A DNA stretch of 64,000 bases from NCBI RefSeq assembly GCF_034259205.1, contig NZ_CP139487.1, forward strand, positions 2,232,001 to 2,296,000. The letters run 5' to 3'. The notes below the pieces were generated by a model. That model was given only the letters and a program-made list of their open reading frames with translations, was not told where the DNA came from and did not search any database. This DNA is from Peredibacter starrii. GTDB lineage: Bacteria; Bdellovibrionota; Bacteriovoracia; Bacteriovoracales; Bacteriovoracaceae. This document shows, in pieces, positions 595 through 25,295 of the stretch (its first letter is position 1; each line of letters starts with the position of its first letter). The position numbers and the translations under genes are program-made.

Positions 595-3500
595 TTAAAA
601 CTCCTCATTTTTTAATTGTTCATTTTTATCAATATATCTTTGTGAAGCATTTTTACCAAAGAGATAAAACACCGCCGGTGTTACGAAAAGGTCCAGTAGG
701 GTAGAAGTCAAAAGACCTCCCACGATTACAACGGCAACGGGGTGGAGAATCTCTTTCCCGGCCTCGCCTTTTGCGAATAACAATGGAGTTAGGGCAAGAA
801 TGGCAGTCAGGGCCGTCATGAGAACGGGGACAAGTCTTTCTAGAGTTCCCCGGATAATCATCGCTCGACCAAATTTTTCACCTTCTTCCGTCATAAGATG
901 GAGATAGTGAGAAATCATCATAATCCCATTTCTTGAAGCGATCCCACAAAGAGTCACAAAAGCAATGAGCGAAGCGATCGAAAATGACCTTTCTGTCAGA
1001 TAGATGGCCCCTACACTACCAATGAGTGCGAGCGGAATATTGAGCATAATTTGAAACGAGAGAACTGCCGAATTAAAGTGGAAGTACAGAATCAAAAAGA
1101 TCAATAAAAGAGAGATAAGACCCAGCCAGATCATTTGCTGAGAAGACTTCATCTGACTTTCAAACTGGCCCCCTACTTCCATATGATAACCTTCCGGCCA
1201 CTCAATTTCTTTTGAGGCCTTCTCGATTTTTGACACCAGTTCCCCAAGATCAACTCCGTGTGAGTTTGCAGAAACCACAAGTCTACGTTGCAGACCTTCA
1301 CGATTAATCATATTCGGGCCACTGCCTTTATAGACGTTTGCCACGTCTTTAACTTGAATATGATCACCAGTCGGAAGAAGTCTCAAACGAATGTTCTCAA
1401 TGGTCTCTGGATTTGAACGTGATGGTTCATCCAGTCTCAGCATGATTCCGTGAATCTGCTGACCTTCAATGACGTTACCGACACTGTAACCATTCAGCAT
1501 GGCCTCCATGTCCTGTGCCATGGAACCAGCACTCATGCGGGCCCTCTTCACTTCTTCTTTATCAATGAAGATCTTGAGTTGTGGGATTTGTACCAGCGGT
1601 TCCACTTGGAGATCTTCCAGACCTTTAATGTCTTTAATTTTTTCAAAAATTTCCCCACCCAGACGACGAAGTTCAACAATGTCTGGACCGAAGATCTTTA
1701 AAGCAATCTGTGAACGAACACCTGAAAGCATATGATCCAGGCGATGTGAAATTGGTTGACCCAGGTTTACAAACACTTCTGGCCATACAGATTTCACCTT
1801 CTCTCGGATGTCGTTGAAGATTGCTTCTCTGGGCCTTTCTGATTTTTTGAAATCAATGTCGATCTCGTTCCAGTTTACACCTTCGGCGTGCTCATCCATT
1901 TCTGCTCGGCCCACACGACGGGTAGTTGATTTCACTTCCGGGATCGTTAAGAGGGCCTTCTCTACTTCAAGACCTTTTCTGTTTGATTCAGTCAAAGAAA
2001 TACCAGGAGTGGCCTGTAGGCCCAGTGTCGCTGAACCTTCATTGAAGGCCGGCAAGAAATCTCTTCCCATGAAAGGAACTGCTGCGACTGCGATGAAAAA
2101 CATCACAGTTGCGCCACTCATAATGAGATAGGGTCTATTTAAAGTGTGATCCAAAAGTTTTGCGGCCCACTTTTTGAGCGTCCTAACTGTAAGTCCATCT
2201 TTCTCTTCTTTAATAGATTCAGCATTTCTACCAAGGAGGTAGTAGCAAAGAACTGGAGTAAGCGTCAGCGAGACAAACAGAGAGGCCAGAATAGAAATAA
2301 TGTAAGCATGACCCATAGGTGCGAAGAGTTTTCCTTCAAGTCCACCTAAAGCGAACAATGGAATGAAAACCAGAACCACAATGATGGTTGAGAATACAAT
2401 GGAATTCCTTATTTCTTTTGAGGCCTCATAGATAACTTTCAAGACCGGCCTAGGATTGGAAAGATGTTTATTCTCATTTAGACGTCGGTGAACGTTTTCC
2501 ACGTCCACAATGGCGTCATCCACGAGTTCCCCAATGGCAACTGCAAGACCTCCAAGTGTCATGGTGTTTACACTGATTCCAAAAATCTTAAAGATAAGAG
2601 CTGTTAGCACAAAAGAAAGAGGAATGGCCGTAAGAGTGATAAATGTAGTTCTCCAGTTAAGTAGGAACAACATCAGGATGATCACAACCATGATCGTTCC
2701 GTCTCTTAAGGCCTCAGTCACGTTTCCGATGGCGTTCTCAATAAAGTGAGACTGTTTAAAGAGGTCGGATTTAATCTCTACACCACTTGGGAGTGACCTT
2801 TTGAGATTCTCCAATTCTTTCTCAATTTGACGAGTAAGAGAAGTTGTTTCGGCCGTAGGTTGCTTCTGAATGGTCATCACAACTGATGGGACACCATTGA
2901 CTGAACCGTTTCCTCGTTTAAAGTAGGCCCCTACTTTAACTTCTGCGATGTCCTTCACTTTTACTGGATTTCCCAAATGTAGACCCACGAAGGCCTCTTC
3001 AATGTGCTTTACCGTTTCTGCACGGCCAATTGTTCGGATGAGATATTCCTTCTCTCCAATATCAATGAAGCCCCCTGAAGTATTGTGGCCAATTTCAGCA
3101 AGAGAGTGTTTTAGGTCTTCAATGGTAAGACCCTTCGCCTGAATTTTTTCGGCCGACACGAGAATCTGATACTGCTTAAGATCACCACCAATTGTAATGA
3201 TCTGACTCACTCCAGGAATCGCCAGGAGTCTGGGCCTGATGGTCCATTCCGCCAATGTCCTGAGTTCCATGGGACTTACATCTTCTTTGGGAGAAGTGAG
3301 ACCCACAAACATAATTTCACCCATAATGGATGAACTTGGAGTCATAACGGGAATAATTCCTTCCGGTAATTTCTCACGAGCGAGCTGCAGTCTTTCCGAC
3401 ACAATTTGACGGTTTTTAAAAATGTCAGTACCCCAATCGAATTCAGCATAAACAATCGAAATACCCGCACCGCTACTGGAACGGATTCGCACCAGACCCG

Positions 3501-3729
3501 GTAGACCATTTAGAACGTTTTCAATTGGCATGGTCACCTGAACTTCTGTTTCTTCAGGTGCCAGTCCTTTGACTTCTGTCATGACCGTTACAACCGGTCG
3601 ATTGAGATCAGGGAACACATCTACCGGGAGCTTTAAGGCCTCCCATGTTCCGATGATCAAAAGAATAATACTTACTGCTATAACAGCAAGTCGTTGGCGC
3701 AGGGCCAATTTAATAATTGAATTAAGCAC
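595..3729 (-). CDS. Heavy-metal efflux RND transporter, CusA/CzcA type
   Basis: 1044 residues, full length for an HME-RND inner-membrane pump that exports metal cations using the proton gradient. Seen in the sequence: N-terminal TM helix, PVDVFPDLNRP after TM1, a first periplasmic porter domain, a TM bundle around residues 340-500 with GELVDDAIVDVENVHRR in the fourth helix, a second porter domain (about 560-860) and a second TM bundle to the C-terminus. The acidic TM4 motif is the HME signature region, in a variant that differs from the classical CzcA and CusA forms, so the metal cannot be assigned. The operon continues with a small secreted protein and a TolC-type gene. The periplasmic adaptor is not in the window and may lie to the left. 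Confidence 0.93.
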   Translation of the reverse strand: MLNSIIKLALRQRLAVIAVSIILLIIGTWEALKLPVDVFPDLNRPVVTVMTEVKGLAPEETEVQVTMPIENVLNGLPGLVRIRSSSGAGISIVYAEFDWGTDIFKNRQIVSERLQLAREKLPEGIIPVMTPSSSIMGEIMFVGLTSPKEDVSPMELRTLAEWTIRPRLLAIPGVSQIITIGGDLKQYQILVSAEKIQAKGLTIEDLKHSLAEIGHNTSGGFIDIGEKEYLIRTIGRAETVKHIEEAFVGLHLGNPVKVKDIAEVKVGAYFKRGNGSVNGVPSVVMTIQKQPTAETTSLTRQIEKELENLKRSLPSGVEIKSDLFKQSHFIENAIGNVTEALRDGTIMVVIILMLFLLNWRTTFITLTAIPLSFVLTALIFKIFGISVNTMTLGGLAVAIGELVDDAIVDVENVHRRLNENKHLSNPRPVLKVIYEASKEIRNSIVFSTIIVVLVFIPLFALGGLEGKLFAPMGHAYIISILASLFVSLTLTPVLCYYLLGRNAESIKEEKDGLTVRTLKKWAAKLLDHTLNRPYLIMSGATVMFFIAVAAVPFMGRDFLPAFNEGSATLGLQATPGISLTESNRKGLEVEKALLTIPEVKSTTRRVGRAEMDEHAEGVNWNEIDIDFKKSERPREAIFNDIREKVKSVWPEVFVNLGQPISHRLDHMLSGVRSQIALKIFGPDIVELRRLGGEIFEKIKDIKGLEDLQVEPLVQIPQLKIFIDKEEVKRARMSAGSMAQDMEAMLNGYSVGNVIEGQQIHGIMLRLDEPSRSNPETIENIRLRLLPTGDHIQVKDVANVYKGSGPNMINREGLQRRLVVSANSHGVDLGELVSKIEKASKEIEWPEGYHMEVGGQFESQMKSSQQMIWLGLISLLLIFLILYFHFNSAVLSFQIMLNIPLALIGSVGAIYLTERSFSIASLIAFVTLCGIASRNGIMMISHYLHLMTEEGEKFGRAMIIRGTLERLVPVLMTALTAILALTPLLFAKGEAGKEILHPVAVVIVGGLLTSTLLDLFVTPAVFYLFGKNASQRYIDKNEQLKNEEF

Positions 3730-3774
3730 AACAAGTCCTTACTTAGATTAAAAGCGAAAACAAGAATGAAAGGA

Positions 3775-4077
3775 CTAGGCTATAGGAGGATGAAAGATGG
3801 TGGATTCGAACTGTGAGATTTGGAGCTCATCAGTGGGAAAAAATTCTGTACTTGGAATAGAGTTCGGTCCGCTTAACACAACGGAGTCTTGAGGCAATAT
3901 CTTGACGTGATTCACAGGAGAGCAGTGACAATGGTTCTGAGATAAGGGCGACTTATCTTCATGATCGTCATGATGTTCCATTTCAATTGAATGAGATGGC
4001 TCAACTTCAAAATTGCAGCAATCAGCAAAAACGCTGGTGGAAAAAAGAATGGTGAAGATTAAAAATAAGGCCTTCAT
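3775..4077 (-). CDS. Small Cys/His-rich periplasmic protein, probable metal binder
   Basis: 100 residues: signal peptide to about residue 18 (ending VFA), then DCCNFEVEPSH, an EMEHHDDHEDK cluster and an NHCHC motif. Four Cys and many His and acidic residues in about 45 positions point to metal binding. It is first in the minus-strand metal-efflux operon, 45 bp before the RND pump, so a periplasmic metal sensor or chaperone role is inferred. No family is recognised. A possible -10 (TAAAAT, 4087-4092) sits only 9 nt before the ATG and no Shine-Dalgarno is visible. Confidence 0.7.
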   Translation of the reverse strand: MKALFLIFTILFSTSVFADCCNFEVEPSHSIEMEHHDDHEDKSPLSQNHCHCSPVNHVKILPQDSVVLSGPNSIPSTEFFPTDELQISQFESTIFHPPIA

Positions 4078-16973: not shown

Positions 16974-17831
16974 TTACTGATGAAGTCTCTTCTTCCACAA
17001 GAGATAACTTTCCAGATATTCCTTAGAGCCCATTTCTTCGGCAAGATTTTTACCCAGTTTACCCATGGCCTCTTGATAGAATTTGATTTCTTCTTCGAAG
17101 TCATCAAAAGTCATGTGAATAGGCATGCGAGTGCGCCAGAATGGTTTTTGTGCCAAATACTTAGGAAGATACTGAACCATATCAATGGCCGACGAAGGCA
17201 TGATGCCAATTGAAATGTGCATGGATTCTTTTTGAGTCTTTGCGATATGCCACCAGCCCGATGGGATATACAACCAATCACCTTCATCTAAAGTCACATT
17301 GATTTCAATGGGAGTTTTTTCATTCTCATAGCCCAAGTTTTTAGGAATGGAGCTGATGAGTGGATTCGGGTGAACTGTATTGGGGCGAATTGTGTAGGCC
17401 TTGCTACCTTGTACTTGAATGATGAAGACTTCCTCAACGTCATAGTGCCAACCAAAGGCATTATGGCCCTCAGGGGTGCAATAAAGCTGAATATCAACGT
17501 CTGAATGGAATGAACGAGCAAAGTCCTGAGCAATGGCGTTGAACATCGGAGAAGCTTTTTCAGCATAACGAACCAGAAGAGTGTGTCCCTTTTTGTGATG
17601 CTCTTTTGCTTCCTTAGAATCGATGTCCACGTAGTCTTTGATGACTTTTCCGTCTTGAACAATCCTTAGGACCGATTTTTTTGTATCAATAATGTCTTCA
17701 ACAACTTTCCAGTTGAGAATTTCTTTGAAGTCAGTTGCCCCGTGAGTTTTGGAAAAAGGCAATCGGGTAAAGTGCTTAGGTAAGAAACTAAGGTTTGGGT
17801 CTTCACCCAAGAGCTTTCTAAGGATGTTCAT
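16974..17831 (-). CDS. Cupin/JmjC-type 2-oxoglutarate oxygenase-like protein
   Basis: 285 residues from the ATG at 17831; a GTG three codons upstream is also open but GGGGG fits the ATG better. The double-stranded beta-helix carries HYDVEEVFIIQVQG (HxD metal ligands), KAYTIRP (possible 2-oxoglutarate contact) and YIPSGWWHIA (distal His). This matches cupin_4/JmjC bacterial oxygenases such as ribosomal protein hydroxylases, or related storage cupins. The substrate is unknown. It lies 22 bp after the DoxX gene on the same strand. Confidence 0.82.
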   Translation of the reverse strand: MNILRKLLGEDPNLSFLPKHFTRLPFSKTHGATDFKEILNWKVVEDIIDTKKSVLRIVQDGKVIKDYVDIDSKEAKEHHKKGHTLLVRYAEKASPMFNAIAQDFARSFHSDVDIQLYCTPEGHNAFGWHYDVEEVFIIQVQGSKAYTIRPNTVHPNPLISSIPKNLGYENEKTPIEINVTLDEGDWLYIPSGWWHIAKTQKESMHISIGIMPSSAIDMVQYLPKYLAQKPFWRTRMPIHMTFDDFEEEIKFYQEAMGKLGKNLAEEMGSKEYLESYLLWKKRLHQ

Positions 17832-17853
17832 GGCCCCCACTATAGCGTGGAAA

Positions 17854-18395: not shown

Positions 18396-18422
18396 AAAAA
18401 GGCCCACCTTTTCAGGCGGGCC
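18396..18422 (-). terminator. Rho-independent terminator after the small Ala/Pro-rich lipoprotein gene
   Basis: Minus-strand GGCCCGCC/GGTGGGCC stem (18422-18415 with 18408-18401, one G-T pair) with a short loop and TTTTT at 18400-18396, located 25 bp after the lipoprotein stop. Confidence 0.85.
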
Positions 18423-18446: not shown

Positions 18447-18659
18447 TTACTGAGCAGCAGGAGCGTCAGCTGGAGCAGCTTCAGCAGGTGCAGCTTCAGC
18501 AGGAGCAGCTTCAGTTGGAGCAGCTTCTGGAGCTGGAGCAGCTTCAGCTGGAGCAGTTTGCTCAACAGTTGTACCTTCTGCAGGAGCAGCTTCTTCTTTT
18601 TTGTTACAAGCAACAGCTAGAACAACTAGAGCAGCAGCGATTACTAAATACTTAGACAT
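18447..18659 (-). CDS. Small Ala/Pro/Glu-rich lipoprotein
   Basis: 70 residues. The lipobox LAVAC places the lipidated Cys at 18; next come NKKEE and then a low-complexity tail built from EAAPA units repeated about nine times. It is probably a short flexible lipoprotein tethered to the membrane. AAGGAG sits 7 nt before the ATG, and a strong terminator follows, so it is likely well expressed as a monocistron. No function is recognised. Confidence 0.78.
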   Translation of the reverse strand: MSKYLVIAAALVVLAVACNKKEEAAPAEGTTVEQTAPAEAAPAPEAAPTEAAPAEAAPAEAAPADAPAAQ

Positions 18660-18820: not shown

Positions 18821-19663
18821 CTAAAAATTCATAGTTTTTTTGCGACAAAGGGTAAAGGCCAGAAGTTGCGGATAGTAAGCAGCTTCATTGATAAAAATGG
18901 GGTAAAGCCGTTCCTTTGTTTCCAGAGAGAGCTCTCTGCCATCGAAGGTTTTGAAAGGTGTATAGCGTCCTTCAATGGCCCTAAAATCTTGTCCCTGGAA
19001 TGCTGGATGGATATAACCATCAAGCTCGCTATTTTCATTCTGAGGATAAAAAATATCCTCTATTTCTTCATAAATTTCCAGGGGGCCGCCCGTCAATGTG
19101 GCCAGAGTCGAAATACCCCTTAAAACTTCCTTTAGTACTTGCACTGTTCCTTCGAGAACTGGGCCACTAAGTACGCCATTTGCAACGGGTCCGACCTCAA
19201 TCATCATGCCAAAATCTGACTGAGAGGCGAGATACTTTTTTGTTGGATCAGGTGAAACGATGACACGGCAATCGGGAAGTGTTTTGGTCATTTCTCGTGC
19301 GACATGAAAGTTTGTCGGTTGGTTATGAGAGATGATGACGGTGTTTCCCATGTTGGACGTGGTGGTGTGAAGATCAATCACAAAACATGGTTCTGCATCA
19401 ATCATTGCTTTCAGTTCTTTCGCGCGGTGATGCTCAAAAGAGTTTGGGCGATCTTCATGCAGAAATTGGAAAGCACGATTCAGATCTTCGTCTTTAAATC
19501 TCTTGTTAATTTTAAATGCTTCCGGATTGGCCAGAATGAAATGGAGATCAAGATCTTTAAATTCTTCAGTGAGGGCCTCAGCGTATTTTTTGACCGCATA
19601 GATTCCAGTCCATTCATTGCCGTGTGTACCGCCAAAGATCAGGACTTTCCTCAATGCTTTCAT
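18821..19663 (-). CDS. Aspartoacylase / AstE-AspA family zinc deacylase
   Basis: 280 residues of the M14-like zinc carboxypeptidase fold. The zinc site is GGTHGNEWTG (H, E) plus DLHTTTSNMG (H). RFKDEDLNRAF holds the substrate-binding Arg motif (DLNRxF) of aspartoacylases, and IEVGPVANG carries the catalytic Glu. The family cleaves N-acyl-amino acids (N-acetylaspartate, N-succinylglutamate). It overlaps the RimK-like ligase gene by 4 bp, so the two are co-translated. That points to a role in hydrolysing or trimming an acylated peptide or amino acid made by the ligase locus. Confidence 0.88.
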   Translation of the reverse strand: MKALRKVLIFGGTHGNEWTGIYAVKKYAEALTEEFKDLDLHFILANPEAFKINKRFKDEDLNRAFQFLHEDRPNSFEHHRAKELKAMIDAEPCFVIDLHTTTSNMGNTVIISHNQPTNFHVAREMTKTLPDCRVIVSPDPTKKYLASQSDFGMMIEVGPVANGVLSGPVLEGTVQVLKEVLRGISTLATLTGGPLEIYEEIEDIFYPQNENSELDGYIHPAFQGQDFRAIEGRYTPFKTFDGRELSLETKERLYPIFINEAAYYPQLLAFTLCRKKTMNF

Positions 19664-21150
19664 CTTTTCTCCTCAATTCTCCTCACGAACTCATGAATGA
19701 CATTGTGATACAGGTCCATTCCGGAGATGGCGTCTTCTACATCTGCATCAATATTTGGATTGTCGTTAATTTCAATGACGTAGGCCTTACCATTTTTTTC
19801 TTTCACGTCTACACCATATAAACTATCTCCCACAAGATGAGAAAGTTTCAGCGCAGTATTGATGACGTGTTTCGGCACTTTTGAGATAGGGAAGGTCTCG
19901 GCCTCACCTACATGAACGCCTTTTTTCACTTTTTTGCTATGGTCGTAAATCTGCCAGTGACCCTTCGTCATATAGTACTTGCAGGCAAAGAGAGCGCGAT
20001 CGTTAAGGACCCCGATCCTCCAGTCAAAATCAGTATAAAAATATTCCTGGGCCAAAAGGAGAGCGGTCTTCTTGAAAAGATCATCCGTCACTTTGATTAA
20101 TTGTTCAGGACTTTCAACTTTAAAGACACCTTTAGAAAATGAACCATCCGGAATTTTAATGATCATCGGAAGGCCAATCTCATCTACCGCCTGTTTTAAT
20201 TGCTCCGGACTACTACTGCTTAAGATAATGGTCTTAGGAGAGTTGATGTTGTTCGATTTTAAAAGATTGTGCATGTAGATCTTGTTAGTACAACGAAGAA
20301 TCGACATCGGATCATCTATCACCACTAATCCGTCAGACTCGGCCTTCTTAGCGAAGCGATAGGTGTGATGGTTAAGAGCGGTGGTTTCACGAATAAAAAG
20401 CGCATCGTATTCAGCGATGCGGGCGTAGTCTTTCTTCTCAATGAGCTCAACTTGAACGTCATTTTCTTTACCGGCCTTAATAAAATTGGCCAGGGCCTTT
20501 TTATCACTTGGAGGAAGGGCGTCCGCGGGATTGTGAAGGATCGCAAGATCATAGCGATACTTTTTCTTCGCCTTCGGTTTTCTCCAGATCTTTCCAGAGT
20601 AGTGATCAAGGGCCGAAGCAAACTTATCTTCATCTGTATTTGAAAGAGCGTTTAAGCTTCCCGGTCTGATCGAGTGAATTTCCCATTTCTTGTTCCACTC
20701 AAAATCCACGTGAAGGATAGGGGCAGGGAAGAGATCAAAGACCTGTCTTGCCACGTCCTGAAGTTGTTCACGATCAGTTCTTCCGAAAAAGATAGTGATG
20801 GAAAAGCCTTCCGAAGGGTTTTGGTTTTTAAAGGCCTTTTGAATGGCCATGTCGAGATCTTCAGTTTGCAGGTTATAAAGAAACGATCTTGAAAGATCGT
20901 TTACGGCCTTCACTGATGGAATAACGGAATGGCCCCGGGCCTCGGCAAGGAGAGAACAGTAATAACCATTACTAAGGTATTTATAGTTACGGCAGAGATT
21001 GATGATCTTAATTCGCTCTTTATTGCCGTCTTTTTCGAAACGGCCCTCATCCCAATTGACTAGATAGTCTTTCGGAGTCATGAGTTGTTCCACCGGGTAA
21101 TAAGAGTTCCAGTCCTTCAGTTTCTCGACAATGACAATAATACGGGCCAC
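19660..21150 (-). CDS. RimK-like ATP-grasp ligase with RLAN-type N-terminal domain
   Basis: 496 residues. The start is GTG with GGAAGG upstream. Residues 1-190 resemble the RimK-like ATP-grasp N-terminal (RLAN) domain: RIIVIVEKLKDW, YLVNWDEGRFEKDG, NLCRNYKYLSNGYYCSLLAE. Residues 200-490 are the ATP-grasp domain: DDPMSILRCTNKIYMHNLL, IIKIPDGSFSKGVFKV (ATP Lys and glycine-rich loop), DWRIGVLNDRALFACKYY, and VIEINDNPNIDADVED (Mg-binding E/N/N). Such enzymes join an amino acid to a carboxylate through an acyl phosphate. The acceptor is unknown. It shares an intergenic region with the divergent GNAT-C39 gene and overlaps the aspartoacylase. Confidence 0.87.
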   Translation of the reverse strand: MARIIVIVEKLKDWNSYYPVEQLMTPKDYLVNWDEGRFEKDGNKERIKIINLCRNYKYLSNGYYCSLLAEARGHSVIPSVKAVNDLSRSFLYNLQTEDLDMAIQKAFKNQNPSEGFSITIFFGRTDREQLQDVARQVFDLFPAPILHVDFEWNKKWEIHSIRPGSLNALSNTDEDKFASALDHYSGKIWRKPKAKKKYRYDLAILHNPADALPPSDKKALANFIKAGKENDVQVELIEKKDYARIAEYDALFIRETTALNHHTYRFAKKAESDGLVVIDDPMSILRCTNKIYMHNLLKSNNINSPKTIILSSSSPEQLKQAVDEIGLPMIIKIPDGSFSKGVFKVESPEQLIKVTDDLFKKTALLLAQEYFYTDFDWRIGVLNDRALFACKYYMTKGHWQIYDHSKKVKKGVHVGEAETFPISKVPKHVINTALKLSHLVGDSLYGVDVKEKNGKAYVIEINDNPNIDADVEDAISGMDLYHNVIHEFVRRIEEKR

Positions 21151-21195
21151 GTGCCTTCCATGTTTTGAATTATCTAGTACAATAGCAGAAGCAGA

Positions 21196-22341
21196 ATGAA
21201 GGCCTCAATGAAAAATAAATTAAAATTCGAATCCCAACTAGTAAAAATACGGAAAGCAAAAGTAGGCGATATTCCGGCGCTTCTGATTTTAGAAAATGCA
21301 TGTTTTAACTACGACCAACTTGGTCGAAGAAACTTTCATTGGATGATTAAAAAGGCCCATTCCATTCTCCTTGTTCTTGAATACAAGAGTGAACTGATTG
21401 GTTATGGGCTAGTTCTTATTAATAGCGGCACTAGTCTTGCTCGTCTCTATTCCATTTGTACCTTAAAAGAATTTCAAGGCCATGGTCTGGCATCGAAGCT
21501 CATCCAGGAGCTTGAAGTGAAGGCCGCTCAAGATGAGGACTGTGCTTATCTTCGTTTGGAAGTGAAAGAAAACAATCGCGGCGCCATCAAGCTCTACGAA
21601 AAACTTGGTTATGTAAAATTCACTGAGAAAGAAGACTATTACGACGATGGGCAAACTGCTTTATGTTTTGAGAAACGAATTCGTGTTCTTAAAAAACGCC
21701 CAGGCCTGGATGTTCCCTATCATCAGCAAGGAACAGATTTTACCTGCGGCCCTTCCTGTCTTCTGATGGCGATGAAGACTTTCAATCCAAAATTTGAAAT
21801 GACCTTGTCCAATGAGTTACAGATCTGGCGAGAGGCCACTACGATTTTTATGACCTCAGGACACGGAGGTTGCGGACCTCATGGCCTTGCCTTGTCTGCT
21901 TGGCGCCGAGGATACAAGGCAGAAATGTACCTCTCTCATAGTAACGTTCTTTTTTTGGATTCAGTTCGAAGCCAGGATAAGAAAAAAGTTATTGAACTGG
22001 TTCACAAGGACTTTGAGAAAAGAATTTCCGAAACCAACATCAAGGTTCATCGCAAACGTCTGACTTTAAGTGACTTAAAGGAGATATTGAAGGACGGAGG
22101 AATTCCTCTCGTTCTAATTACCACTTATCATTTTGATAATAACCGGGCCCCTCATTGGGTAGTGGTTACGGCCTACGATGATAACTTCGTTTACATTCAC
22201 GATCCGGATCAACATTCTCCGGAAAATCACATTGGTGTTATCAGCCGCATTCATATTCCTATTCAAGAGGATCAATTCTTAAAGATTTCCCGCTGGGGGA
22301 AAGATCGCATGGCCGCAACAGTGGTTGTTTATCCAGAGTAG
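21196..22341 (+). CDS. GNAT acetyltransferase fused to a C39-like peptidase domain
   Basis: 381 residues. Residues 15-165 are GNAT: LYSICTLKEFQGHGLASKLI is the acetyl-CoA loop (Q-x-x-G-x-G/A) and NRGAIKLYEKLGYVKF the C-terminal signature. Residues 175-380 are a C39-like papain-fold domain: TDFTCGPSCLLMAM gives the nucleophile Cys, APHWVVVTAYDD the His, and IHDPD the third residue. GNAT-C39 fusions beside RLAN/RimK-like ligases have been noted in comparative genomics as probable peptide-modification systems. The start is uncertain: ATG 21208 has AAGG nearby and would drop four residues. The RimK-like gene diverges 45 bp away. Confidence 0.87.
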   Translation: MKASMKNKLKFESQLVKIRKAKVGDIPALLILENACFNYDQLGRRNFHWMIKKAHSILLVLEYKSELIGYGLVLINSGTSLARLYSICTLKEFQGHGLASKLIQELEVKAAQDEDCAYLRLEVKENNRGAIKLYEKLGYVKFTEKEDYYDDGQTALCFEKRIRVLKKRPGLDVPYHQQGTDFTCGPSCLLMAMKTFNPKFEMTLSNELQIWREATTIFMTSGHGGCGPHGLALSAWRRGYKAEMYLSHSNVLFLDSVRSQDKKKVIELVHKDFEKRISETNIKVHRKRLTLSDLKEILKDGGIPLVLITTYHFDNNRAPHWVVVTAYDDNFVYIHDPDQHSPENHIGVISRIHIPIQEDQFLKISRWGKDRMAATVVVYPE

Positions 22342-22401
22342 TTTACTACAGAAAGTTTTGTCAGTTGTATCGATCTTAACAATTGGTGTATCCTATTGGA
22401 A

Positions 22402-23622
22402 ATGCGAATTGAAGTCACCGTTGGCTCTAACGAACCAACCATCTATCCACTGTCATTGCCCAAGATTACTGTCGGTTCATCTGACAATTGTGAAATTGTA
22501 ATCACAACCAATGGGATTAGTCGTAAGCACATTACGATCGTTACTGAAAACGATTCTTACTTCATTATTGATCAGGGGAGTACGAACGGTAGCTTCATTA
22601 ATGAAGAAAGACTTGTTCCTGGTAAGAAGACAGAATTTACTTCGTTCTTTCCAGTCCGCCTTGGTGATGACGTTACCATCAGCCTATTGAGTGATGAAGA
22701 AAAGCTGGACAAGATTCTTGTGCCACTTCGAGAAAAAACCGAGGCCTCGCGCCCTGATATTTCTCGTTCGGATATTACGTCGACGTCTTTGAATCGTAAG
22801 ATGTTACGTCAGGATAAAACAGGAACTCACACGAATCTAAAAATTCCTAAACCTCCTGGAAAATCTAAAGCTGAACCTTCAGTCAGTGTGCTGGACCGAG
22901 CAAAAAAAATTAATGTCATTCCATTGGCCGCTTTTGGTATTCTCGCCTTTGCGGTTTATTGGAATTTATTTGTTATTGAGAAAGAACCGAATCCTGATGA
23001 TCTGGCGAATGCTCCTCAACAGGAATTTAAAATTGAGAAGGCCATACCGGTTGAAAGGCCCGTCAGTCATCATGTACCGAAAGAAGAACTTCTTCCTAAA
23101 GAAGGTTTTGCTAAGTACCAAGCTGATCTGAAATGTGTCTCTGATGTTGAACAGTATTTCTGTAATCTCATTCCAGGGCTTAAAGTCGCTCCATACGGTG
23201 CGGTTCAATTTAAGTTGAATGTTTATTTAATGCTGGATGGGACACCTTATTTCGATGAGGCCAAGAAAAGCACAGATCCCTTTGCTCCCATCATAACTCC
23301 GGGAGTTTCTCCAGGAACGACGGTTGCTCAGGGTAACAATCAAGAAAAAGAAAGTTACACTGATACTCAATACAACATGGGAGTTTATCTTTTTCTGCTA
23401 AAGCATCTTCCAGAGTTGGATGAGGCCAAAACTCAAGACATGAACATTCTTGTGGCGTTTTATACTAAAAATTCGCCCAACACTCCTGTTAAGGTGATTG
23501 CTTTTACAAGCAAGGGATTCAACAAGTTGAAACCAACCTTAAAAGAAGATCAGCTGATTCAGATTCGTGGTGGCGGAGACTCTGCAATGGCCCCTCTGAA
23601 AGAGGCCATTGAGATTTATTAA
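22402..23622 (+). CDS. FHA-domain membrane protein
   Basis: 406 residues from ATG 22402. Residues 20-100 are a forkhead-associated domain: ITVGSSDNCEIVI, GISRKHITI, DQGSTNGSFIN, the residues that bind phosphothreonine. A disordered linker follows, then one TM helix around 170-190 (VIPLAAFGILAFAVYWNLFVI region), then a periplasmic domain of about 200 residues with no known family. FHA outside a kinase suggests control by a Ser/Thr kinase or a secretion-related assembly. It starts 60 bp after the GNAT-C39 gene on the same strand; its last 4 bp overlap the convergent cytochrome gene. Confidence 0.83.
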   Translation: MRIEVTVGSNEPTIYPLSLPKITVGSSDNCEIVITTNGISRKHITIVTENDSYFIIDQGSTNGSFINEERLVPGKKTEFTSFFPVRLGDDVTISLLSDEEKLDKILVPLREKTEASRPDISRSDITSTSLNRKMLRQDKTGTHTNLKIPKPPGKSKAEPSVSVLDRAKKINVIPLAAFGILAFAVYWNLFVIEKEPNPDDLANAPQQEFKIEKAIPVERPVSHHVPKEELLPKEGFAKYQADLKCVSDVEQYFCNLIPGLKVAPYGAVQFKLNVYLMLDGTPYFDEAKKSTDPFAPIITPGVSPGTTVAQGNNQEKESYTDTQYNMGVYLFLLKHLPELDEAKTQDMNILVAFYTKNSPNTPVKVIAFTSKGFNKLKPTLKEDQLIQIRGGGDSAMAPLKEAIEIY

Positions 23623-25295
23623 AGTGTTTTAAGGAATTCAACCAACTCGCGTTTTTCCGTCTGAGAATAGATCTCTTGTCCGTCCTTCAGGAAAATTTTC
23701 TCATCATGTCCTAGATTCGAAAGTCCTTCTTTCCTTGCATCGTATAGGAAGTCCGGATCTTTTTTCCATTCGGCCGGGGCCTTTGATCCGATTGGATAAC
23801 CAACACAATCCTGATCGAAATCACGTTCCTTATTTTTTGCCGGACCTGCGACATATGTTTTTGGACGAAGAGAACCACGAGTAAGAACCGCGCAGAGATT
23901 CGGAGCAGAGTTGTTATGGAAATACGGCCAGCGTGACCAGATTCCATCTAGCGGAGGTGGTACATAACCTTTTTGAGGTTCAACCACTGTTCCAATCGTT
24001 TTTGAGATGGCAAGGCGATTAAGATCGGCCGCAAAAGCTCTCATGCCCAGATAACGACCAGGATCAGTTCCCACGTCTCTCACTGGAGTTTTTTTATGGT
24101 AGGTGACTTTTGCATTCTGAATGAGTTCAGTTTGAGAGAGTCTCTCTGCGCCGGGGAGATCCCAACCTTTCTCATAGGTACCATGGCAGCGCTGGCATGA
24201 TTGCACATAATGCTTTTGTCCTCTCTGTGCCATGGCAATATCGATAGAGTTTTCTCCGAAGAATTTTTCATAGCGGGGAGGTTTACTCGCGAATACCGCG
24301 GCCGTCAGGGCCTCAATCGTTTTATGATTTGAAGTTAACCAACCTTCTAATTCATGAAGATCAGTACCTCTTCCGATTTCATTCCAAAGGAAGTTTGTAT
24401 GAACCGGGTTACCTGAAACAATTGAACCGTCTGATAGCCAACGGTTTTTATACTTAACGTTCCACCATACTGCCGGCTTACTGTCGGCCGCCTTTTTCTC
24501 GAGTTCATTTGGTCTTGGATGACGAAGAGATCTCTCAGTTCTAGAGGCATAAGCATCTTGTTCACGTTTTGAGAGGGAGAGTGCCACTTGAGCGAGAGAC
24601 GTATCAAGGCCCACCGAGATGGGCTCACGAACTCCCACATATTTCAAATTATGCTTGGCCTTGACCAGAATTTGTCTTTCTCCTTCTGTCGCGTGAAGAA
24701 GATCTCTGAAAATGAATGTGTTTACATAGGGAGCGAGCATGGCCCCGCGACGGAAGAATTCATTGGCGCGAGGAAAACGGTTTGTCAGTCCTAAAACCTT
24801 TACTCCGAATAGATCAGAAGTGTGACAAGCGGCACATCCGAAAGTTAGGGCAACTCCGTCTGGCGTCTCCATGAGAGTAGCGCCCATCGGTAGTTCTTTT
24901 TCTTTTGATGTTAAAACCGGAAAAGCATTCGGTGTTTCAGTTTGAGTGTCAGTCGGGAAGTCATGAAGGCCCAACCACTTATAAACCTCATCCATGCTTT
25001 TAAATGGTGAAACGGTTTGAGTAAGTCTGTACAAGAGTTCACGAACCGGATCATTTGGTTTTGAATCGAAGAAATTTTTCAAAGGTTCATAAGGAATTCT
25101 AAGTTGGCTGACTGTCACTGGATAGAAAAGAGCGTGTCTTCGGCCATCCATGACTGTTTTTGAAAAGGCCCCTGGTGAAAGCTCGTAAATATTCTCTCGA
25201 GGACTCGTAACTTCAAAGTCCCTGGTCCAGTTGGGCTGGGCCAGAACCGAAGATGATATAGTAAATAAAAATAATTTAAGCAGGTGTTTTTTCAT
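23619..25295 (-). CDS. Diheme c-type cytochrome, large, periplasmic
   Basis: 558 residues with a signal peptide ending VLAQ. Two heme sites: GCAACHTSD near residue 155 and CQRCHGTYEKG near residue 368. Between them lies a long helical domain; WSRWPYFHNNSAPNL with CAVL follows the second heme. The layout (two CxxCH about 210 residues apart, YFHN-type motif) recalls cytochromes related to di-heme peroxidases and RoxA-like oxygenases, but the reaction cannot be stated. It is a single gene with convergent overlap at its 3' end. Confidence 0.82.
   Translation of the reverse strand: MKKHLLKLFLFTISSSVLAQPNWTRDFEVTSPRENIYELSPGAFSKTVMDGRRHALFYPVTVSQLRIPYEPLKNFFDSKPNDPVRELLYRLTQTVSPFKSMDEVYKWLGLHDFPTDTQTETPNAFPVLTSKEKELPMGATLMETPDGVALTFGCAACHTSDLFGVKVLGLTNRFPRANEFFRRGAMLAPYVNTFIFRDLLHATEGERQILVKAKHNLKYVGVREPISVGLDTSLAQVALSLSKREQDAYASRTERSLRHPRPNELEKKAADSKPAVWWNVKYKNRWLSDGSIVSGNPVHTNFLWNEIGRGTDLHELEGWLTSNHKTIEALTAAVFASKPPRYEKFFGENSIDIAMAQRGQKHYVQSCQRCHGTYEKGWDLPGAERLSQTELIQNAKVTYHKKTPVRDVGTDPGRYLGMRAFAADLNRLAISKTIGTVVEPQKGYVPPPLDGIWSRWPYFHNNSAPNLCAVLTRGSLRPKTYVAGPAKNKERDFDQDCVGYPIGSKAPAEWKKDPDFLYDARKEGLSNLGHDEKIFLKDGQEIYSQTEKRELVEFLKTL

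Follow-up and report, generated by a model that had tools for sequence, protein, structure and literature searches.

What might a RimK-like ligase, a zinc hydrolase and an acetyltransferase fused to a cysteine peptidase do together, and do their genes form a unit? The three genes lie side by side in the window, by which is meant the whole 64,000-nucleotide stretch analysed (positions 2232001–2296000 of a genome of 4.15 Mb in one contig, from a relative of predatory bacteria that is closest to the Bacteriovoracaceae). On the minus strand, an AstE/AspA-family zinc hydrolase closest to aspartoacylase (AspA, 18821..19663) follows a ligase made up of an RLAN domain and a RimK-like ATP-grasp domain (19660..21150, GTG start), and on the plus strand a GNAT domain with the RimI/Ard1-like N-alpha-acetyltransferase fold is fused to a DUF3335 C39-like cysteine peptidase (GNAT-C39, 21196..22341). 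An earlier, sequence-only reading had named these ORFs and their identities, and the Pfam and NCBIfam profiles agree with it. It had also taken the ligase and AspA to be co-translated; the ligase stop and the AspA start overlap by 4 nt (ATGA), which is consistent with translational coupling.

The same reading placed a divergent promoter in the 45-bp intergenic gap (21151..21195, no strand assigned), an assignment made from geometry only. The annotated starts do diverge, with 45 bp between them, but the opening 9–15 residues of the GNAT ORF are unconserved in the family alignment, so the true gap may be 45–90 bp, and in gammaproteobacteria the pair mostly forms a co-directional operon running from GNAT-C39 to RLAN. 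Since a sigma-70 consensus scan of the gap returned no promoter match, a shared promoter is not claimed. About 160 bp downstream of AspA there is an ORF for a small Ala/Pro/Glu-rich lipoprotein (18447..18659, minus strand), which is syntenic in the lineage and is followed by an intrinsic-terminator-like hairpin with a T tract (18401..18422, minus strand).

The GNAT-C39 fusion matches PF00583 (1.4e-17) and PF11814/DUF3335 (1.1e-82), and scores 276.9 bits against a cut-off of 25 for the DUF3335 C39-like peptidases. The Cys-His-Asp triad (C184, H320 and D336) and Q178 are conserved in the family alignment. By both sequence and fold, the GNAT domain is nearest to the protein N-terminal acetyltransferases RimI, Ard1, Naa10 and Naa30; the predicted structure of the fusion (mean pLDDT 86) has RimI and Ard1-type N-terminal acetyltransferases as its best structural matches, and the top 50 matches listed were to GNAT proteins only, with none for the C39 half. 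The ligase matches PF14401 (2.5e-50) and PF08443 (7.4e-13), belongs to the RLAN ATP-grasp family at 170.5 bits against a cut-off of 25, and keeps the ATP-grasp residues K290, K332, R378, D448, E460 and N462, which are invariant or nearly so in the family alignment. A structure search with its model, whose confidence is modest (mean pLDDT 69), returned RimK as the best match, with D-Ala-D-Ala ligase and ArgX/LysX among the top matches.

These GNAT and ATP-grasp domains come from the same broad families as those of the ribosomal modification enzymes RimI and RimK, but the module carries additional RLAN and C39 domains and falls below the corresponding cut-offs, both for the RimK S6-glutamate ligase (equivalog NF007764, 35.9 against 331 bits; subfamily TIGR00768, 88.7 against 143.4) and for the RimI S18 acetyltransferase (TIGR01575, 69.3 against 86.4). 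The genome contains a separate RimK (277.6 bits) and a second RimI-like gene (68.4 bits, likewise below the 86.4 cut-off), and with the cut-offs missed and these genes present elsewhere, the trio is ruled out as the ribosomal RimK/RimI.

AspA matches PF24827 (6.4e-26) and PF04952 (1.2e-11), scores 245.8 bits for the aspartoacylase equivalog NF002601, whose cut-off is 180, and, among solved structures, is most similar to mammalian aspartoacylase (1e-40). In the alignment of family members, the zinc ligands H14, E17 and H99 and the catalytic E156 are invariant, and R55, N62, R63 and Y263 are invariant or nearly so. The sequence-only reading had named loss of active-site residues in orthologs as a sign against it; each of the three families has kept its catalytic residues.

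A comparison with human ASPA, in which residue roles follow PMC10998430 and the human sequence was taken from the PDB alignment, shows that the acetyl pocket (T118, F282, E285, A287 and Y288; PMC10998430) is retained in AspA, except that Q184 is replaced by N, which fits an acetyl group supplied by the partner GNAT. R168, which is credited with aspartate selectivity in the human enzyme (PMC10998430), is matched by neither Arg nor Lys in AspA, where the loop is two residues shorter (KKYLASQSDFGMMIEVG), and the feature specific for N-acetylaspartate, an R168 equivalent contacting the aspartate side, is therefore lacking; Q148 is found in 19 of 20 aligned members. Bacterial homologues outside the locus likewise have no R168-type Arg, so its absence is not peculiar to the locus, and the locus-linked copies have an LxSQ motif in common at this site. 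The residue pattern suggests that AspA is an N-acetyl-amino-acid deacylase preferring a side chain other than aspartate.

The distribution of the genes was surveyed in 192 genomes from the phylum to which the window belongs, 229 gammaproteobacteria and the relatives' loci (L002–L023), with neighbours detected by profile searches on all frames. RLAN occurs in about a tenth of the phylum genomes (19 of 192) and about a fifth of the gammaproteobacteria (50 of 229), and strong DUF3335 matches occur in 13 of 192 and 33 of 229 respectively. All 13 phylum genomes with strong DUF3335 also contain RLAN, adjacent in every case, as do 32 of the 33 gammaproteobacterial carriers, 29 of them within ~2.5 kb (Fisher p 5e-16 for the phylum and 4e-25 for the gammaproteobacteria, values that are descriptive because the genomes are related). 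A functional link between the ligase and GNAT-C39 is thus supported across two phyla, and a linked acyltransferase/peptidase partner of RLAN ligases has been kept over large evolutionary distances. A few loci have the GNAT without C39, including that of Dokdonella.

AspA is a lineage-specific third member that lies outside this RLAN-DUF3335 core. Among the relatives' loci the order GNAT-C39, RLAN, AspA recurs and the outer flanks vary; AspA is present in every complete Bacteriovoracaceae-type locus but one (L020), which has the GNAT part only, and a copy lies near the locus in one further genome (G188). The co-conservation of the three genes, which the sequence-only reading had set as its test, holds for the ligase and GNAT-C39, but for AspA it is confined to the window's lineage and the nearby copy in G188.

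Within that lineage the three genes are also absent together. In a genome placed in the window's genus (G184, 92% complete), profile searches found no RLAN, no DUF3335 and no AspA above the cut-off; the p25495-CytC-FHA block on one side and the small lipoprotein on the other are retained, exactly GNAT-C39, RLAN and AspA are missing between them, and three pseudopilin-like ORFs (a pilin call made by eye) occupy their place. In another genus of the same family (G138), FHA adjoins a homologous lipoprotein without the trio. Because the genes are absent as a block between kept flanks, the trio behaves as one unit, and a genus with both carriers and a block-lacking genome offers a natural comparison. 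The lipoprotein, which is kept in G184 without the trio, is probably a mere neighbour.

The chemistry is hinted at more clearly by a sister architecture than by the trio on its own. This architecture is frequent among RLAN loci without GNAT-C39; in it, a standalone C39 lies upstream of RLAN and a GCS2-like ligase and an N-formylglutamate-amidohydrolase-like (FGase) protein lie downstream; one example is on a Legionella plasmid. The 17 GCS2/FGase loci form one clade in the RLAN tree (SH-aLRT 100), and the GNAT and GCS2 partnerships are separated by a single change on that tree, so GNAT and GCS2 seem to fill the same slot, with the FGase zinc hydrolase seeming to stand in for AspA. GCS2 (PF04107) enzymes are small-molecule amide ligases. 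A carboxypeptidase-type zinc hydrolase joins the ligase in three lineages, as AspA, as FGase and, beside GNAT-C39 in one gammaproteobacterial group, as an M14 zinc carboxypeptidase; each of these types typically sets free an amino acid whose alpha-carboxylate is unblocked. With the two architectures compared, a small number of assays would cover the chemistry that is left to consider.

The trio is filed here as a variant of RLAN ligase/GNAT-DUF3335 systems that had already been noted, as the sequence-only reading also said. GNAT-DUF3335 fusions are recorded in PMC10318531, which points to the comparative genomics of RLAN ATP-grasp proteins by Iyer et al. (2009; PMID 20023723); DUF3335 is fused to GNAT in those systems as in the trio, and they were proposed to be peptide ligases or acetylases. 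Neither the version with AspA, nor the absence of all three genes together, nor the comparison of the GNAT/GCS2 and AspA/FGase slots was found in the literature searched, which did not include Iyer et al. itself.

The reading tentatively preferred, at a little below an even chance, is that the genes form a cytosolic module for making and recycling a short peptide or amino-acid conjugate that is N-acylated, and in this case N-acetylated. Gene content, linkage, block absence, partner swapping and intact catalytic residues are observed, and from them a set of reactions, with their order, substrates and cytosolic location, is proposed. The GNAT domain would put an acetyl group on the alpha-amine of a short peptide or single amino acid. 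The RLAN/RimK-like ligase would then spend ATP to couple an amino acid, probably an acidic one like Glu, to a carboxyl group. The C39-like cysteine peptidase fused to the GNAT may cut the ligated bond and so control pool size, and AspA would hydrolyse the released N-acetyl-amino acid, the amino acid and acetate returning to metabolism; at most loci AspA is missing, and deacylation there would fall to an enzyme encoded elsewhere or would not take place. In the sister version, a GCS2-type ligase would be the initiating or capping enzyme instead of GNAT, and an FGase-like zinc enzyme would take the role of AspA. A small-molecule product is favoured because the GNAT is swapped for a small-molecule ligase family and zinc hydrolases releasing free amino acids are repeatedly recruited. 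The logic of ligation, acylation, cleavage and deacylation put forward by the earlier reading is supported, and that reading as a whole is supported in part.

Also counted towards the make-and-recycle cycle were the RLAN-DUF3335 linkage in two phyla, the block absence in G184, the kept acetyl pocket, the separate RimK, RimI-like and glutathione-synthetase-like genes elsewhere in the genome and the lack of a conserved precursor ORF; counted against it were the protein-NAT-like GNAT, the recurrence of RMND1/DUF155, the GNAT loci without C39 and the pLDDT of 69 for the ligase model.

The same enzymes could instead modify a protein, possibly one linked to the ribosome, a reading that is possible if on the doubtful side. 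The GNAT would acetylate a protein N-terminus, C39 would trim N-terminal residues, the RimK-like ligase would add amino acids to a terminus or side chain and AspA would clear N-acetyl-amino acids. A protein target is favoured by the RimI/Ard1-like GNAT, by the RimK-like ligase, among whose top matches ArgX/LysX act on a carrier protein, and by a recurring neighbour, RMND1/DUF155, which in four loci follows 22–31 bp after RLAN. RLAN is present in 16 of 30 genomes with DUF155 (p 4e-5), and the two are within 8 kb of each other in five genomes against ~0.1 expected. The RMND1/DUF155 family is linked to mitochondrial translation in eukaryotes, and a JmjC_2 protein, whose family has a ribosomal oxygenase among its members, adjoins the locus in close relatives. 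Further points in favour are the close relationship of DUF3335 to PF09778 (PMC10318531) and a trim-then-acetylate precedent on actin, from which the cysteine protease ACTMAP removes acetyl-Met before NAA80 re-acetylates it. By enzyme type this too is a cysteine peptidase paired with an N-terminal acetyltransferase, but here the two form one fused bacterial polypeptide accompanied by a ligase and a deacylase, and we know of no actin-like target for the GNAT-C39 fusion. Against a protein target, the sister clade has a small-molecule ligase family in place of the GNAT, FGase acts on a free amino-acid derivative, the RimI and RimK equivalog cut-offs are missed in a genome that has separate RimK and RimI-like genes, and no conserved target protein was found beside the genes.

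For the make-and-recycle cycle, two known systems offer analogies, and the module may work like either in its logic. The NAGGN osmolyte trio comprises AsnO, Ngg and a peptidase (PA3459-PA3461; PMC8070244) and likewise has an acetyltransferase and a dipeptide-ligating step, the peptidase being encoded in the same operon; the trio described here differs in having no AsnO, in having its GNAT and ligase as separate proteins and in its type of peptidase, and it reaches only 15.5 bits, through the GNAT part, against the cut-off of 569 for the NAGGN synthetase TIGR03103, in which GNAT and ATP-grasp are one protein. The mammalian NAA/NAAG cycle relies on NAT8L, RIMKLA/B and ASPA (PMC5756261, PMC10998430), which belong to the same three fold classes as the module's enzymes, but the module's AspA lacks the ASPA specificity Arg and the module adds a C39 peptidase.

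A strict bacterial counterpart of that cycle, with the GNAT making N-acetylaspartate, the RimK-like ligase extending it to N-acetylaspartylglutamate and AspA hydrolysing N-acetylaspartate, is improbable: the matching fold classes and the similarity of AspA to mammalian aspartoacylase speak for it, but neither Arg nor Lys stands in for R168 in the shortened AspA loop, and the GNAT resembles protein NATs. A bolder form of the preferred cycle, rather unlikely as a complete proposal, would be a hitherto unrecognised N-acyl-peptide cycle of bacteria, a functional parallel to vertebrate NAAG metabolism. In it an N-acetylated dipeptide would be built and recycled by four activities, namely an acetyltransferase of the N-terminal type, a ligase resembling RimK, a C39 peptidase and a deacylase of the aspartoacylase type, and the sister version would be started by a gamma-glutamyl-type ligase.

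Production of a graspetide-like ribosomal peptide, with the C39 domain as leader peptidase, is highly improbable. Clusters of this kind are reported to contain both ATP-grasp ligases and C39-type peptidases (PMC8939145, PMC13039773), but small-ORF clustering near the genes (20–110 aa) found no family-wide counterpart of the conserved precursor peptide gene that marks a RiPP/graspetide cluster, and no transporter family was identified among the recurring neighbours. The sequence-only reading had suggested looking for a small precursor ORF; the clustering yielded one lipoprotein confined to the window's lineage, together with ORFs resembling antisense shadows of larger genes, and the lipoprotein was rejected as a precursor peptide, being lineage-limited and surviving in G184 without the trio.

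Chance proximity or a glutathione-like thiol pathway is hardly tenable: chance is excluded by the linkage statistics (5e-16 and 4e-25), and although the sister clade's GCS2 and ATP-grasp pair recalls the way two ligases make glutathione, GCS2 is missing from the GNAT-C39 architecture (type A). Glutathione synthetases also coexist with the module: of 20 carriers checked, 8 have one scoring over the cut-off, and G000 has a homologue that is more distant, so that a simple replacement of glutathione is rejected.

The RLAN ligase gene is repeatedly adjoined by a gene of the RMND1/DUF155 family, across both architectures of the locus and in both phyla sampled (retrieved loci L028, at 3088-3885, L115, L145 and L161; also L131, L153 and L160), and in four loci this gene lies 22-31 bp downstream of RLAN.

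In the window, AspA is followed, ~160 bp downstream, by the gene for a small Ala/Pro/Glu-rich lipoprotein (18447-18659, minus strand; lipobox LAVAC), after which there is a terminator-like hairpin; a small lipoprotein is found in synteny at nearly all AspA-bearing loci. It is also kept in G184, a genome of the same genus from which the AspA, RLAN and GNAT-C39 trio is absent, and where the trio's position, between the FHA protein and the lipoprotein, is held by three pseudopilin-like ORFs (L232, 3913-7508). The FHA-domain protein and a RoxA-like cytochrome c form one block (22396-25295), which is still in position in G184 and in G138, a trio-less genome from another genus of the family. A gene for a JmjC_2 protein (16974-17840, minus strand), whose family includes ribosomal oxygenases, lies near the locus in the window and several close relatives.

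In one gammaproteobacterial group, GNAT-C39 is adjoined by a divergent M14 zinc carboxypeptidase gene (L104, L106, L115, L125 and L028). The sampled genome G188 has, besides its RLAN locus, a second ligase-deacylase pairing, in which a canonical RimK-like ligase and another AstE/AspA-like hydrolase form a tight pair (L220, 2930-4801).
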